A stretch of DNA of 29,343 nucleotides from a virus. Below are positions 228-8,287 of this stretch, piece after piece. Position numbers and translations under genes: made by a program. Location of the stretch: the IMG/VR virus record IMGVR_UViG_3300045738_000483, positions 1 to 29,343 of that record; one strand, given 5' to 3'. The notes below the pieces were generated by a model. It ran no database searches. It was given only the letters and a program-made list of their open reading frames with translations, and had not been told where the DNA came from. Each line of letters begins with the position of its first letter. The first letter of the stretch is position 1.

Positions 228-444
228 AGTTATATTAGGAATAATCGGATTGGTCATCACGCTAGGTGGCATGATGATTACAGTAGGTACGATTATGAAT
301 AGGTTAGATGTAATGGAAGCTAGGTCAGCTCCAGACATCAAGCCCATTGTAGCAGACATAGCCATTAACAAAGCTGAAATAGCTGTGCTTAATGCACGGG
401 TAAACGAAATCAAAAGTCGGTCTGATAATCCGCTTCAACAGTAG
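217..444 (+). CDS. small membrane protein with N-terminal TM and helical tail (holin- or spanin-like candidate)
   Basis: A 75-residue protein starting at TTG. Residues about 4-27 are a continuous hydrophobic stretch (ILGIIGLVITLGGMMITVGTI), followed by a charged, heptad-like helical region with Ala, Ile, Glu and Lys alternating (about 30-68). One TM segment plus a soluble coiled coil matches inner-membrane spanins or small accessory holins, but no lysis motif is diagnostic. A later ATG at 271 would cut the membrane segment in half, so the TTG start is preferred. The gene overlaps the upstream ORF, and its 3' end converges on and overlaps the leftward HNH gene by 35 bases. A lysis role is inference; any single-pass membrane protein would look the same. 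Confidence 0.5.
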   Translation: MDIKVILGIIGLVITLGGMMITVGTIMNRLDVMEARSAPDIKPIVADIAINKAEIAVLNARVNEIKSRSDNPLQQ

Positions 445-718
445 AATTATAATAATCTAATAATTCTTGTTCTGTTCCGTGTTTCTTTTCCCAAGATTTT
501 CTGCCTCCGTGTATGCCATGTCTTGGATCTTGGTGATGATGCCAACAGAGCGGTACATATTCACTATGATTTCGTTGTCCTAAACCCATACCTTTTCTTA
601 GATGGTGTATGCAAGCTTGAACAAACCCATGCCCATTTTTTTTACAGACTACACAGCCATATACATTAGCCATGTAGTCCATAATTTTTTTATCTCTACG
701 GGTTGGTTTCTTTTTCAC
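410..718 (-). CDS. Ref-like HNH nuclease
   Basis: A 102-residue small zinc/HNH-type protein. It has CVVC (Cys22, Cys25), then His38-His39 after a hydrophobic strand, then LCWHHH (Cys58, His60-62) and a GIHGG segment near residue 70, followed by a basic helix. This Cys/His pattern, with the IHH...PLCWHHH...GIHGG order, is that of the RecA-dependent nuclease of phage P1 (Ref) and its many phage relatives. In that family the protein cuts DNA at RecA-made D-loops. It is the last gene of the leftward operon, next to SSB, exonuclease and annealing protein, which fits a recombination role. Its ATG overlaps the stop of the preceding gene by 4 bases. Family assignment is fairly firm; actual RecA dependence is inferred. 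Confidence 0.75.
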   Translation of the reverse strand: MKKKPTRRDKKIMDYMANVYGCVVCKKNGHGFVQACIHHLRKGMGLGQRNHSEYVPLCWHHHQDPRHGIHGGRKSWEKKHGTEQELLDYYNSTVEADYQTDF

Positions 719-933
719 TGTAATTTTTCAGGTGTTAATCTAATATTTCTTATTTCTTTTTTATTACCTTTGACCAGATAGTCAAGCTCACATAATCTTT
801 TAACTATAGTGTAAGCTTGACTTTCAGCAATTAAACCGCAGTCATCTGTAATTTCTGTATATGTAGGCGGTAATCCTTTTATCTGGATTGTTTGCTTAAT
901 ATATTTATATACTTCTGATTGTAATTTAGTCAT
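715..933 (-). CDS. LexA-type winged-helix DNA-binding protein
   Basis: A 72-residue protein that matches the N-terminal winged helix of LexA repressors. A first helix (LQSEVYKYIKQTI) is followed by the GLPPTYTEI signature at about residues 19-27, a recognition-helix region, and then a wing with IRNIRL near the C-terminus. The S24 peptidase half is absent, so it cannot self-cleave. It would act as a small transcription factor or phage regulator. It overlaps SSB (TAATG junction at 933) and the HNH gene (ATGA-type), so all three are probably co-translated. What it regulates cannot be read from the sequence; a role in timing early-gene shutdown is a guess. Confidence 0.7.
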   Translation of the reverse strand: MTKLQSEVYKYIKQTIQIKGLPPTYTEITDDCGLIAESQAYTIVKRLCELDYLVKGNKKEIRNIRLTPEKLQ

Positions 934-1367
934 TAGAATGCAAGCTCCCCCCCGTCATCTTCATCATCTTTTCTAACGGGTGGTTTACCAAATACAGAAG
1001 TATCTTTACCAATACTTGTGTCTTGATTAAACTCGTTGTTTTCTCTACTACCTAATAACTCTACTTTGCTTGCAGTTATTGTAATCATTTTAACGCCCTC
1101 TTTATTTTTGTAATAACCAAGTGAGGCTTTTACAAAAACTTGTTTGCCTTTTGTTAAGAAAGGCTCTAACTTATCTAAGCTGTTTTGATTTTCCTTACTC
1201 GCCCAGAAATGAATGTTGTGCCACACCGGCTCTTCTTTCTTTAAATCCTTATTCCATTTGGTTGTTGCAATACCGAAAGATAAATATCTATTACCAGTAG
1301 ATGCTTCTCTCATTTCTGCGTCTTGCCCTAAGTTTCCTATTAAAAATATTTCATTTAGTGATGCCAT
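933..1367 (-). CDS. ssb: single-stranded DNA-binding protein
   Basis: A 144-residue SSB of the bacterial OB-fold type. The N-terminus has the family's IFLIGNLGQDAEMR start, the VWHNIHFWA strand at about 48-56 and a KGKQVFVKASLGY segment. The tail is disordered and ends in DDEDDGGELAF, an acidic tip like the DDDIPF tip that recruits partner proteins in bacterial SSBs. It coats ssDNA during replication and recombination and sits with the exonuclease and annealing-protein genes, forming a complete phage recombination set. The start overlaps the end of the upstream gene by 17 bases. Length is slightly shorter than E. coli SSB because of a short linker. Confidence 0.92.
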   Translation of the reverse strand: MASLNEIFLIGNLGQDAEMREASTGNRYLSFGIATTKWNKDLKKEEPVWHNIHFWASKENQNSLDKLEPFLTKGKQVFVKASLGYYKNKEGVKMITITASKVELLGSRENNEFNQDTSIGKDTSVFGKPPVRKDDEDDGGELAF

Positions 1368-1713
1368 TTTGTACTACCTCCTTAAATTCTGGTAATCCAT
1401 TATTATCTAAATGTTCTTTTAACATTGCTATAATATGTTCTGCTTCCACATTACCCTGAGTATCAGTTTCTAAATCCTCAAGAGCCATTAACTCATACAT
1501 AAGACCAGAGTCTAAATCTATGAAATTAACCCATGCTTCAAAAGAACATACGGGTTCCCATTGATTTCTTTCTTCGTACCATTCGTGTTCATCCATATCA
1601 AAATGTATATAACATAAAGTAAATGGTCTATCATTCCATTGAAATTTAATATCCAATTTTTTACGTCGGTTAAACTCCTTGCTTGTTGGATGTATTATTT
1701 CTATATTTCTCAT
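1351..1713 (-). CDS. hypothetical acidic protein
   Basis: A 120-residue protein with no family I recognise. It is acidic and aromatic-rich in the middle (an HFDMDEHEWYEERNQW stretch at about 37-52), with predicted beta strands early and helices in the last 50 residues. The start ATG at 1713 has an AGGA about eight bases upstream. The leader between this gene and the annealing-protein gene carries the perfect 11-bp GATAGATAGGT hairpin, so the hairpin sits in its 5' untranslated region. Its last 17 bases overlap ssb. Position between annealing protein and SSB suggests a replication or recombination accessory role, but nothing in the sequence shows it. Confidence 0.75.
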   Translation of the reverse strand: MRNIEIIHPTSKEFNRRKKLDIKFQWNDRPFTLCYIHFDMDEHEWYEERNQWEPVCSFEAWVNFIDLDSGLMYELMALEDLETDTQGNVEAEHIIAMLKEHLDNNGLPEFKEVVQNGITK

Positions 1714-1731
1714 TGTTGTTTCCTATTATGT

Positions 1732-1761
1732 GATAGATAGGTGTGCTATTACCTATCTATC
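1732..1761. repeat. perfect 11-bp hairpin of the GATAGATA family
   Basis: GATAGATAGGT at 1732-1742 pairs exactly with ACCTATCTATC at 1751-1761 around an 8-base loop. It fills the short gap between the annealing-protein gene and the 120-residue gene, and has no U-tract. The same stem sequence recurs in hairpins near 5.8, 6.0 and 6.15 kb and in part near 7.02 kb. It may be an RNA-processing or stability element, or a protein-binding site. Confidence 0.8.
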
Positions 1762-1768
1762 GGTTAGT

Positions 1769-2491
1769 TTATTTACTTTTCTTTTTCTCTTTTAACTTTG
1801 CCTCTTCCTCTTTGCTTCGCTTATCCATAATGTCCTTATGTCTGACATTCATGAGAGAAGCTATGTTTACTTGATCTTCATGCGAGATAAACTCTTTAAT
1901 GAAGTCTTTCCTTTTAGTATCAGTAGTAAACTCTATCAATTCTTCCTCACTCATAGCTTTCAGAACTTCTTTTACAGAATCTGCGCCATTTGGATATTGG
2001 GATTGAAAAAGATTTTTATTTTTCTCAGTTAAGGCAACTAACATTTCATTAGATGAGGCGTACTCGCCACCATGTAAGCCAAGACAAGACAACGCTCTAC
2101 CTATTGCTGATGTATCACAGTTTTCTACACCAGAAGCAACGTTGATTTTATTGTCTGCATCTATTCCAATATTTTCAGAAGCAATTCCAGAAGCGATAAC
2201 ATTACCGTCTTTGTCTGTGATTTCTGCTTGGATAGTTACAATCTTACCTACCTCACAAAACTCTGGTAATAGCTTACTTCTTATGCCGTATCTTGTACCA
2301 AAAGTTTCTCTAAAGATAAGAACTCTATCCTTTACTTCGGAATATTTTTTGTGTGGTCTTATTTCAATACCGCTTTCTTTAGTTTGCTGACCTAATTGAG
2401 CCATTGCTACTAATAGATTTTTAGTATCATCCGTGCTAAACTCACTATTTTCTAGTGAAGTTTCTTTAACTTTATTAGTTATATCAGTCAT
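1769..2491 (-). CDS. ERF/Rad52-like single-strand annealing protein
   Basis: A 240-residue recombinase. Residues about 46-150 form the core: a short beta region, ITDKDGNVIASG, then the family's C-terminal signature GRALSCLGLHGGEY at 131-144 followed by ASSNEM. The last ~30 residues are a lysine/glutamate-rich helix ending KEKKKSK. ERF-type proteins anneal complementary ssDNA exposed by a partner exonuclease; here that partner is the gene immediately upstream, which overlaps it by 8 bases. The SSB two genes downstream completes the module. The family is clear from the GRA...GLHGGEYAS motif; whether it falls in ERF proper or a sister annealase group needs a profile search. Confidence 0.85.
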   Translation of the reverse strand: MTDITNKVKETSLENSEFSTDDTKNLLVAMAQLGQQTKESGIEIRPHKKYSEVKDRVLIFRETFGTRYGIRSKLLPEFCEVGKIVTIQAEITDKDGNVIASGIASENIGIDADNKINVASGVENCDTSAIGRALSCLGLHGGEYASSNEMLVALTEKNKNLFQSQYPNGADSVKEVLKAMSEEELIEFTTDTKRKDFIKEFISHEDQVNIASLMNVRHKDIMDKRSKEEEAKLKEKKKSK

Positions 2492-3305
2492 TATTTTCCT
2501 CCAAGTTAGTTTCTTTTGTTTCCGCTGCTTTCAGATAACCTCTTTTATCCCTTACGATAGTTACTCCGTCAGACTCTGCTTTATAGCAATCATCTGGGAC
2601 CAGTTTCTTTAATGTTTTCTTTGCATTATTGTTATCTTTAACAAACGGAAGTGTTGTGATAAAAAGCTTGGCGGTATCTCTCCAAATAATGTTGCCACTC
2701 ATATTTATTTTAGACATACCGTCTAGCTTTATATTTTTTGGAATTGGTACAATGGTATCAAAACCTTTTGGTTCTATATCATCTTCAACAAACTTCCAAA
2801 ATGCTGTTTCTTTTCTCATTAACTCTTTTTGAAATTCAACATCAGTATCAATTACTGTGTATTCAAATTTACTATTACCATAGATTACACTTAAAATAAT
2901 ATGGTCAACTGTTTTCCATTTATGTTTCTTATCAATACTATTTTGGTTATAATGCCAGATGTAATGTTGTAATTGAGGGTAGTAATTTTCAGCTACTATC
3001 TCCATATTACTTCTTTCGTGTGTGTGTTTACATTCAACTGGAATACCATCTTCTGTTATACCGTCAAGATGAGACATCACAAACTCTTTTTGGTCTAAAG
3101 TTATATCTCTGGTAATCTTTTTTTCTAGCTCATATTCCAGGAATTTAACATTCACTGGTTCTGTAACTATACCAACTTGAACTTTTAGAATCCGTGATAA
3201 ATCTTCTGGTTCTTTTCTACCAGTTTTTACATTCCAAAGCTCATGCCAATTACCTTTACAAATTTGATAGGCATCGCTACCACCTATACCTTTTTTTCTA
3301 TCCAT
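2484..3305 (-). CDS. YqaJ/lambda-exo-like recombination exonuclease
   Basis: A 273-residue nuclease of the PD-(D/E)XK superfamily. GIGGSD at residues 6-11 is the N-terminal YqaJ motif. Asp81 (SHLDG) and Glu91-Cys-Lys93 (VECKH) give the catalytic D...EXK set, and YYPQLQHY at about 108-115 is the conserved Gln helix. It would resect dsDNA to give ssDNA for the overlapping annealing protein, as lambda exo does for Bet. The start has a strong GGAGG six bases upstream. An AT-rich 39-base gap before it carries two tandem TATAAT hexamers on this strand, so a second early promoter may begin here. The C-terminal ~80 residues (about 190-273) have no motif I recognise. Confidence 0.85.
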   Translation of the reverse strand: MDRKKGIGGSDAYQICKGNWHELWNVKTGRKEPEDLSRILKVQVGIVTEPVNVKFLEYELEKKITRDITLDQKEFVMSHLDGITEDGIPVECKHTHERSNMEIVAENYYPQLQHYIWHYNQNSIDKKHKWKTVDHIILSVIYGNSKFEYTVIDTDVEFQKELMRKETAFWKFVEDDIEPKGFDTIVPIPKNIKLDGMSKINMSGNIIWRDTAKLFITTLPFVKDNNNAKKTLKKLVPDDCYKAESDGVTIVRDKRGYLKAAETKETNLEENND

Positions 3306-6581: not shown

Positions 6582-6872
6582 TTATTCCTCTATGGTGTGA
6601 TACCAATCTATACTAGCCATGACATTATTAATTAATATATCTTTGCGCAAGATTGCACACTTAATTAATTTATCATCAACATATAATCTGTATTGTCTGT
6701 CGCCATTGTCCATAATTTTATGTGTAGTTTTAACTGTTGCAAACTCATGCGAATTACTTGCACTTGTTCCAACAAAAATATTATTGATTCCTTTTTCTTT
6801 AACACCATATGATTTATTTGCTTTATAAATACATGTTGTTATTTTGTTCCAGATAGGATAACTATAAGCCAT
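6582..6872 (-). CDS. hypothetical protein
   Basis: A 96-residue protein (MAYSYPIWNKIT...) with alternating polar and hydrophobic residues suggesting a small beta-rich fold. I chose the ATG at 6872 because AAGGAA lies ten bases upstream; a GTG at 6881 would add three residues but leaves almost no spacing to that site. It is the first gene after the promoter-like region at 6905-6943. No family was recognised. Confidence 0.7.
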   Translation of the reverse strand: MAYSYPIWNKITTCIYKANKSYGVKEKGINNIFVGTSASNSHEFATVKTTHKIMDNGDRQYRLYVDDKLIKCAILRKDILINNVMASIDWYHTIEE

Positions 6873-6904
6873 AATTTTCACTTTCCTTTTTCTATTTAAT
6901 TTAT

Positions 6905-7079: not shown

Positions 7080-7116
7080 GAGAAATCCCAGAGACTTTAA
7101 TTCTCTGGGAAATCTC
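7080..7116 (-). terminator. terminator or attenuator hairpin after the 143-residue gene
   Basis: GAGA-aat-CCCAGAG (7080-7093) pairs with CTCTGGG-aaa-TCTC (7103-7116), starting 10 bases past the stop of the leftward gene. Downstream on the - strand the sequence is T-rich but interrupted (CAATTATTATTATT). TCTC at 7113-7116 can instead pair with GAGATT at 7120-7125, overlapping the stop codon, so two exclusive folds exist. Confidence 0.55.
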
Positions 7117-7125
7117 GTAGAGATT

Positions 7126-7557
7126 TTAACTAAGTGAAGCCATGACTTTACTATAGTCATGTTTTTCGCTAGGTTTAAATCTAGAAACTTTTGATTGTTT
7201 TCTACCGATAAAGTCAATGTCGTATTGACTCTTCATTAATAATTTTAATGAATCAAAAGTTTTCTTATTTACTTTGTTAATACAAAGATATTTCATGTTT
7301 AACTGTTCGATACTATCGAACTCGTCCATATCTCTATCAACTACTGGAAGAGATTTTATCTCATTCATTGAAGCAATCAACGAAGCCGATTGATTTGATA
7401 GAGTTTGGACTTGATTATTAATAGCGTTAAGCTGTCCCATGAGAAACCAATATCCAGATGTTCTCTTTGTATTACTTGCTTCTGGTATAGAAGCTAACTC
7501 TTTTTCATGTCTAGCTAAAACGCTAGAGACATTTATATTTTGAGTTTTGTTGTTCAT
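7126..7557 (-). CDS. hypothetical helical protein, first gene of the leftward operon
   Basis: A 143-residue protein from the ATG at 7557 (MNNKTQNINVSSV). AGGAG lies eight bases upstream; an upstream in-frame ATG at 7575 would add six residues but lies within the leader repeat and has no ribosome site. Residues about 45-75 (NAINNQVQTLSNQSASLIASMNEI) have coiled-coil character, and the C-terminus is basic (GRKQSKVSRFKPSEKHDYSK). It is the first leftward gene after the central divergent region, which usually holds immediate-early takeover genes. No family was recognised. Its first eight codons and ribosome site are part of a large inverted repeat. Confidence 0.75.
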   Translation of the reverse strand: MNNKTQNINVSSVLARHEKELASIPEASNTKRTSGYWFLMGQLNAINNQVQTLSNQSASLIASMNEIKSLPVVDRDMDEFDSIEQLNMKYLCINKVNKKTFDSLKLLMKSQYDIDFIGRKQSKVSRFKPSEKHDYSKVMASLS

Positions 7558-7600
7558 AATAATAACTCCTGGCATATTGCCGTTTTATTATGTGCGAAGT

Positions 7601-7629
7601 AATCGAAAGCAAAGTCAGAGTCTGGTCAA
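7601..7629 (-). promoter_or_regulatory. leftward promoter candidate in the divergent core
   Basis: On the - strand TTGACC (7624-7629) is followed after 17 bases by TCGATT (7601-7606), a good -35 with a poor -10. It would start transcription at the inner edge of the left arm and read into the early operon. Spacing is right; strength is uncertain. Confidence 0.35.
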
Positions 7630-7658
7630 GTGTAGGTTATGGTTTGGTACGGAGGCAC

Positions 7659-7687
7659 TTGGACAGGCTGAACTTATGCTTTACACT
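7659..7687 (+). promoter_or_regulatory. rightward promoter candidate in the divergent core
   Basis: TTGGAC (7659-7664) and TACACT (7682-7687) are 17 bases apart. The pair mirrors the leftward candidate and points to the terminase small-subunit gene. Match to consensus is only moderate (3 of 6 and 4 of 6). Confidence 0.35.
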
Positions 7688-7817
7688 TCGTCACATTAAT
7701 AATAAAACGGGAATATAAATAAGTATCAGGAGTTATGAACACAAAACGTAATATAAATGTCATTTGTTCCCCTGGGAGTGAAGTGTAGGAATACTGACGC
7801 GCTACGCTTGTCGTCTC

Positions 7818-7886: not shown

Positions 7887-7916
7887 ATGAAAAAGAAGAT
7901 AATATTAAGAATATGA
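7887..7916 (+). CDS. possible nine-codon leader ORF before terS
   Basis: ATG 7887 opens MKKKIILRI and stops at TGA 7914-7916, which overlaps the ATG of terS at 7913 (ATGA). GTGAGG lies eight bases upstream. Because terS has almost no ribosome site of its own, this peptide could drive it by coupled translation. It may also be chance. Confidence 0.3.
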   Translation: MKKKIILRI

Positions 7917-8287
7917 ATATGCCGATAAAGAAACAGATAAGCGCTAAAGCTAAGACTCTAGTAGATACACTAGTATCCAAAGGATGTACTATTACTGAGG
8001 CATCATACTTGGCGGGGTACAAGGGAAACTCTGCCCGTGTTTCAGCTCACAAACTGCTACGAAAACCAGAAGTACAAGAATACTTTCGAAGCCAAGTTAA
8101 TCATAGGATTAATATGTCATCTTCTAAGGCTGTCAATACTTTGGCAAGGCTTACAACAGAGGCGAAGTCAGAGTATGTTCAGCTCGAAGCGAGTAAAGAT
8201 ATACTAGATAGGAGTGGGTTCAAAGCTCCAGAAAAACATATGCACTTATTGACTGGAGACTTCCAAGTTAATATAGATTTATCATAG
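7913..8287 (+). CDS. terminase small subunit
   Basis: A 124-residue DNA-packaging protein. The N-terminal ~60 residues form the HTH-type DNA-recognition domain: a helix with KTLVDTLVSKGCTITEASYLAGYKG, then NSARVSAHKLLRKPEVQEYF, the block typical of small terminases. It is followed by a long oligomerisation helix and KDILDRSGFKAPEKH near the end. It recognises the phage packaging site and hands DNA to the large subunit encoded at 10099. The ATG at 7913 is chosen for the ATGA overlap with a short leader ORF; an upstream GTG at 7874 (13 more residues) and a later ATG at 7919 remain possible. The gap after it is a plausible pac/cos region. Confidence 0.75.
   Translation: MNMPIKKQISAKAKTLVDTLVSKGCTITEASYLAGYKGNSARVSAHKLLRKPEVQEYFRSQVNHRINMSSSKAVNTLARLTTEAKSEYVQLEASKDILDRSGFKAPEKHMHLLTGDFQVNIDLS

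Follow-up and report, generated by a model that had tools for sequence, protein, structure and literature searches.

What keeps the start of a phage gene complementary to a stretch of non-coding DNA on the far side of a divergent promoter region? The question is raised by the window, by which we mean the whole stretch of DNA analysed here, a 29.3-kb virus record from IMG/VR. The TerL encoded there shares 81% identity with its counterpart in Pelagibacter phage EXVC031P Hodr. Pelagiphages rank among the most abundant viruses known. It is well supported that in Hodr-type phages a quasi-palindrome is centred on the divergent promoter region, with a non-coding mirror image of the early-gene start lying upstream of terS, and that the two arms co-diverge as Watson-Crick partners. 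What the arrangement does is much less certain, and the possible answers are weighed below.

The locus

An initial annotation had described an inverted repeat with a leader, a ribosome site and a start codon on both sides, opening a 143-residue gene in one direction. All of the elements that it named were found in the window, including that gene:

6582 to 6881: MAHSYPIWN-family gene, the next gene after the early gene
7126 to 7557, minus strand: early gene (143 aa), an ORF that leads the leftward operon; its family is seen across relatives
7528 to 7632, minus strand: left arm, with the early promoter region, leader, ribosome site and first 10 early-gene codons; the start codon at 7555-7557 is covered
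7562 to 7571, minus strand: ribosome-site block CAGGAGTTAT, with its mirror copy at 7727-7736, plus strand; an exact inverted match
7574 to 7591, minus strand: left copy of leader block ATAATAAAACGGCAATAT, 94% complementary to 7699-7716
7580 to 7589, minus strand, and 7701 to 7710, plus strand: the sequence AATAAAACGG
7633 to 7655, no strand: apex, an unpaired spacer of 23 nt
7656 to 7761, plus strand: right arm, upstream of terS, mirroring the promoter region, leader, ribosome site and start codon
7659 to 7687, plus strand: weakly promoter-like boxes TTGGAC-N17-TACACT, close to where the right arm has its inner end; a consensus match only
7699 to 7716, plus strand: right copy of the leader block, ATAATAAAACGGGAATAT
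7735 to 7788, plus strand: 17-codon ORF (MNTKRNINVICSPGSEV) opened by the mirrored start codon; its peptide is not conserved in relatives
7913 to 8287, plus strand: terS, the terminase small subunit gene, which leads the rightward operon (Terminase_2, E = 1e-09; PHROG head and packaging)

The window arms are gapped reverse complements with 84 identities, 10 mismatches and 23 gap positions, and the mirrored part takes in the promoter region, leader, ribosome site, start codon and about 10 codons; the start GAACA.CAAAAC..AATATAAATGTC is found in both. The arms had been put at about 75 bases around a core of 84, and the repeat stands while this extent does not, since most of the core is mirrored too and only 23 nt lie between the arms. 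The inverted repeat scores 86, where the best of 500 dinucleotide shuffles has 46; under stricter scoring it reaches 53, and the best of 20 shuffles has 32. Folded as RNA, 238 nt of the window give −89.5 kcal/mol (z = −10.8), a value equalled by none of 200 shuffles, and the strand folds as one hairpin able to cover the ribosome site and start codon. No second inverted repeat within the window is comparable (the next best score is 30), and none was found elsewhere in Hodr, L003 or L036. Promoter-like consensus matches in the window region are weak and number nine, with 5.7 expected; the TTGGAC box is mirrored by TTGACC on the minus strand at about 7629-7624. Just beyond the early gene is a short hairpin (window 7080-7116) with 18-nt arms that are 83% complementary, and near it, at window 7141-7161 on the plus strand, a terminator-like site.

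The early-protein family evolves fast, the window protein being 7-20% identical to other members. Used as the sole query in IMG/VR, the window protein returned no close relative, and it has no PHROG or Pfam match. Its predicted structure (AlphaFold, mean pLDDT 82) is a long helical hairpin of two long helices, with a short N-terminal helix and a tail; every PDB match to this model has an E above 0.2, and the best viral matches are uncharacterised.

Distribution and anatomy in relatives

Relatives were taken from IMG/VR, 80 of them by TerL and additional loci by the early gene and terS, and the region upstream of terS was scanned. An inverted repeat scoring at least 36 lies at the same place in every one of the 63 loci where a member of the early-gene family is recognisable; these are not 63 independent cases, because several loci are near-duplicates. 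Among loci without a recognised member of the family, the repeat is missing from 18 and present in 9, several of the 9 having a different first gene there. In L009, L012, L013 and L119, which have neither the early gene nor the inverted repeat, the first gene belongs to the MAHSYPIWN family. Most clades score 53-239, and shuffle means are near 22. The low scorers L011, L017, L031 and L064 are uncertain, because scores of 36-46 also occur in HTVC010P-type control loci. These controls, 56 loci from an unrelated AT-rich group of pelagiphages, reach at most 46, less than the 53 of the window, and do so at no fixed position, which leads us to reject a trait general to pelagiphages. HTVC010P itself (L172) mirrors a ribosome site and start codon weakly, at 34562-34649 and from 34829 to the record end (score 45), a feature that is not conserved within its group. 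In MEP301 and two other phages with a related TerL, no repeat scores above 35. An artefact of assembly or amplification is unlikely, given the many indels between the arms, the agreement of many independent contigs and the presence of the repeat in the isolate Hodr.

Arm lengths among the relatives are graded, from about 54 to 430 nt, and apex loops measure 19-155 nt. In several clades the arms reach 300-430 nt; long arms pair about 75-117 early-gene codons with the non-coding mirror copy and the first terS codons, and folded as single strands these relatives give about 260 pairs, with energies from −272 to −321 kcal/mol; one strand could close into a single hairpin with as many as about 300 base pairs. 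Almost every clade whose arms measure about 100 nt or more has its early start codon within the left arm, where 58-87 nt of leader are paired; L036, L115 and their relatives were mis-scored for start-codon position because a longer ORF start was used. In the short-arm clades L065, L070, L133, L138 and L142, the arms end 24-56 nt before the early start codon. At the other end, terS is outside the stem in the window, whereas its first codons are within the stem in several long-arm relatives, and the right arm extends 44-148 nt into terS in several long-arm clades. Scored against their own early gene, the first terS codons reach 48-73 in most cases and only 28 in L044, compared with means near 20 for unrelated genomes.

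The right arms of relatives are full of indels that break the reading frame, and no peptide is conserved there. The 17-codon ORF that had been noted in the window is present, but not as a peptide that relatives share. In the Hodr clade a consensus promoter for the late operon, TTGACA-17-TATACT, lies inside the right arm, and native late transcripts would therefore carry only part of one arm. TTG promoter-like boxes stand at the inner arm ends in 11 of the 24 clades shown, and no conserved promoter was found outside the arms. In two loci with a different-looking first gene (L141, 1472-1853; L145, 2188-2569) the arms measure about 142 nt, have few gaps and contain runs of up to 28 bp, possibly a young version of the repeat. 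L007, L008, L018, L021 and L022 have separate inverted repeats, apparently at another place, whose arms of about 25-29 nt stand 170-260 nt apart and score 40-43.

Co-divergence of the arms

Every left arm was scored against its own right arm and against the right arms of all other genomes. Wherever genomes have diverged, own-arm scores exceed cross scores: the arms of L052 score 173 together, and 47 or less against the right arms of other genomes, with corresponding values of 214 and 54 for L062 and 174 and 41 for L058, while the arms of L003, L072, L075 and L081 match only themselves. In the window, the arms score 53 against each other; the left arm scores 44 against the left arm of the nearest relative, L026, and at most 24 against any other right arm. 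From clade to clade the sequence of the arms has turned over, but within each genome they match. Because arms within one genome are far more alike than either is to the opposite arms of other genomes, the match is being kept up.

Base pairs changed on both sides point the same way. They number 48 and 41 in two clade alignments, compared with 19 in shuffles and 3-20 for slid partners, and in neither alignment did any of 500 shuffles reach the observed count; the structures were taken from one row per alignment, which favours the percentage paired and far less so the double changes. Between L055 and L062 the changes are dispersed along the stem, while between L099 and L106, and between Hodr and its relatives, the apex has apparently been exchanged as one block. 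The initial annotation had proposed comparing relatives for both arms and for compensatory changes, and the result favours it on both counts, with the repeat kept in 63 of 63 early-gene loci and covariation above that of shuffles. Relatives with no right arm, or with a right arm in random drift, were not found wherever the early gene is present. Of the old inverted duplication serving both operons that had been suggested, the duplication holds up; an ancient copy drifting apart is rejected by the co-divergence of the arms within genomes.

The kind of constraint

Plus-strand G-U pairs are tolerated no better than A-C pairs (98 versus 92 columns, and 19 versus 17 one-sided changes), contrary to what selection on one RNA strand predicts, although isolated mismatches lean slightly toward plus-strand G-U (34 versus 19). 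Transitions account for 18 of 44 covarying events (41%), compared with 36% among ordinary substitutions between relatives, and fall below the 61-78% seen in RNA genes (PMC8794818). In most long-arm clades the longest perfect runs are 10-13 bp, where random placement of interruptions would give 16-24; this cap has P below 0.05 in the long-arm clades except L044 and L072, the latter with a run of 18. Short-arm clades show no clear cap, except L026, and runs in L075 and L141 reach 25-28. Indels persist every few bases along the arms.

Four-fold sites change at similar rates in paired and unpaired codons of the early gene (0.22 versus 0.24), and in terS the rates are 0.28 and 0.19. When all synonymous codons of the early gene are pooled, the paired part changes less (0.17 versus 0.26), and pairing is independent of codon position (0.78-0.81). 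Searches with Rfam covariance models at the gathering score gave no match for the window, L062, L048, L015, L003, L072 or L141. A one-strand RNA element and an invertible promoter fit poorly because there is no G-U preference, the runs are capped and four-fold rates are near normal; pairing restricted to Watson-Crick partners suggests that the element works as DNA or that both strands need to fold. Selection may keep a strand-symmetric rod of at most about 300 bp, made of the early-gene coding start, its non-coding mirror and the terS coding start, with perfect runs near one helical turn, as a control or protection element for two genes that needs self-complementarity on both strands; our confidence in this proposal falls somewhat short of even.

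A proposed two-way fold-back insulator and its rivals

The leading reading, weakly held, is a two-way fold-back insulator like that of IS10. In Tn10/IS10 fold-back inhibition an inverted repeat surrounds a promoter, and a transcript buries its ribosome site and start codon only if it runs across both arms. Native IS10 transcripts carry one arm, and the repeats are the short terminal repeats of the transposon. Here, a transcript from its own promoter, in or between the arms, would carry one arm only and be translated, whereas a transcript crossing the whole region, for example by read-through around a circular or concatemeric genome, would carry both arms and fold into a rod. On the minus strand the rod would bury the early gene's ribosome site together with its start codon; on the plus strand, in long-arm clades, it would also cover the terS start. 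We infer that such read-through would occur, that it would block translation and that the block would be the reason for keeping the structure.

The insulator fits the position of the arms over start codons and the strand symmetry of the pairing. If the fold is needed on both strands, the lack of preference for G-U pairs would follow, and the short perfect runs would be accounted for by avoidance of RNase III or of hairpin nucleases. For a native promoter within the repeat, as IS10 has, the candidates are the strong late promoter in the right arm of the Hodr clade and, in the window, matches that are only weakly promoter-like. In Hodr 12 nt separate the convergent operon ends, and a single terminator-like site follows about 280 nt further on, a layout in which read-through may occur. 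Against the insulator, arms of 300-430 nt far exceed the length needed to bury two start codons, some short-arm clades stop before the early start codon, and terS of the window is outside the stem. We favour it only tentatively, as the first among readings each of which is more probably wrong than right.

Template-switch copying is, on a weakly held view, either the main rival to the insulator or the process that maintains it. As a rival, it would make the quasi-palindrome self-maintaining, with no function of its own: template switching or similar copying would mirror changes and extend the repeat outward from a small inverted promoter duplication. The lack of G-U tolerance, a share of covarying transitions that resembles ordinary substitution and is below that of RNA genes, and the graded arm lengths of 54 to 430 nt are all consistent with copying, which explains the unslowed four-fold sites at least as well as selection does. 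Template switching creates and maintains hairpins (PMC8794818) and has been proposed for coding palindromes (PMC6649704). However, copying is expected to leave long perfect runs, as in Nematomorpha, rather than the short ones of most long-arm clades, and indels would not be expected to persist every few bases. Moreover, a non-coding right arm of 100-350 nt is kept in a compact genome in every early-gene lineage. We consider copying without function unlikely, if a serious contender. In a combined view, compensating changes could come from template switching between the arms, so that copying would supply the changes and selection would keep the structure imperfect yet paired.

The arms might instead act at the level of DNA, with single-stranded or supercoiled molecules forming a hairpin or a cruciform, for instance as a replication or packaging signal near terS. 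Watson-Crick-only pairing and the adjacent terS are in keeping with such a role, as is the presence in the phage of genes for an SSB-like protein and a RecE/YqaJ-type exonuclease, but apex loops of 19-155 nt disfavour spontaneous cruciforms and no motif was seen in common across clades; we regard a DNA element as improbable. The genes in question belong to a recombination cluster at window 410-3305 on the minus strand, assigned by Pfam and PHROG:

410 to 718, minus strand: RecA-dependent nuclease-like
715 to 933, minus strand: LexA-like DNA-binding protein
933 to 1367, minus strand: SSB-like
2484 to 3305, minus strand: YqaJ/RecE-type exonuclease

No better placed is a long hairpin RNA made from one strand, serving as a decoy, regulator or processing site. 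The folding statistics of the window (z = −10.8) and the approximately 260 pairs of long-arm relatives speak for it, as does the slight lean of isolated mismatches toward plus-strand G-U. Also in its favour, efficient RNase III cleavage needs longer perfect runs than those here, and such an RNA would be poorly cleaved. What stands against it is the G-U comparison, together with the lack of an Rfam match and of a conserved promoter outside the arms. Of the long RNA hairpin that the initial annotation had offered, a conserved and covarying pairing potential is borne out, but not the G-U tolerance that marks selection on one strand.

Lambda nut and HK022 put sites are short conserved leader elements on two divergent early operons. 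If the arms were likewise two copies of one leader, needed by both divergent transcripts and read by the same factor in the style of nutL/nutR or putL/putR, similar leader elements on two divergent operons would be expected, and both window arms do start near promoter-like boxes and share a leader and ribosome site. A factor site should be conserved, however, whereas the arms turn over completely between clades; unlike nut and put, they co-diverge, also over coding sequence, and run into genes, by 75-117 codons, making a shared leader quite implausible. The initial proposal of an invertible promoter switching between early and late genes, suggested by a promoter region flanked by inverted arms, can be set aside with near certainty, as none of 58 loci has an inverted core, no Resolvase (PF00239) or Phage_integrase (PF00589) domain is present in Hodr (complete) or the window, perfect runs are mostly too short for ordinary homologous recombination, and inversion would swap near-identical promoters.

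Relation to known systems

Both leading explanations have known counterparts, in IS10-type fold-back and in quasi-palindromes kept by template switching. As in IS10, a transcript crossing both arms could, by its predicted fold, close over the ribosome site and start codon; unlike in IS10, arm length goes up to 430 nt, one or two genes contribute coding sequence to the arms, interruptions fall every few bases, and both strands may be active. Known quasi-palindromes maintained by template switching are short stems (PMC8794818). They share with the present arms mirrored changes on both sides, double transversions included, but here the repeat extends over hundreds of bases and its perfect runs are capped. 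Mitochondrial genes of Nematomorpha contain perfect coding palindromes of up to 284 bp, scattered and gained or lost between species (PMC6649704). These too are long inverted repeats within coding sequence whose arms stay complementary, whereas the repeats described here are always imperfect and occupy one locus in every lineage with the early gene. Another structured nucleic acid adjoining terS is cabRNA, reported to be a structured RNA from staphylococcal phage terminase genes that activates CBASS (PMC10686824). The likeness is that both are structured and neighbour terS; the arms lack a G-U signature, and their transcription as one RNA is only hypothetical.

Searches of the literature on Hodr, Baldr and long inverted repeats in phages, which took in few subscription papers or preprints, returned no description of such an arrangement, in agreement with the initial impression that a duplicated leader and start codon of this kind had not been described. 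Base for base, the structure follows a gene that evolves fast; it lacks the usual RNA signature, and its perfect pairing is limited to near one turn. It would be a regulatory element of a new type or else an unusually clear example from nature of two arms evolving together through replication copying, and if selection does act for strand-symmetric self-complementarity, a new kind of element. Hodr is cultured on SAR11 strain HTCC1062, which makes the insulator and copying readings directly testable. The record of L001 (OQ414635) is titled EXVC031P Hodr, and its locus tags read EXVC032PBaldr.
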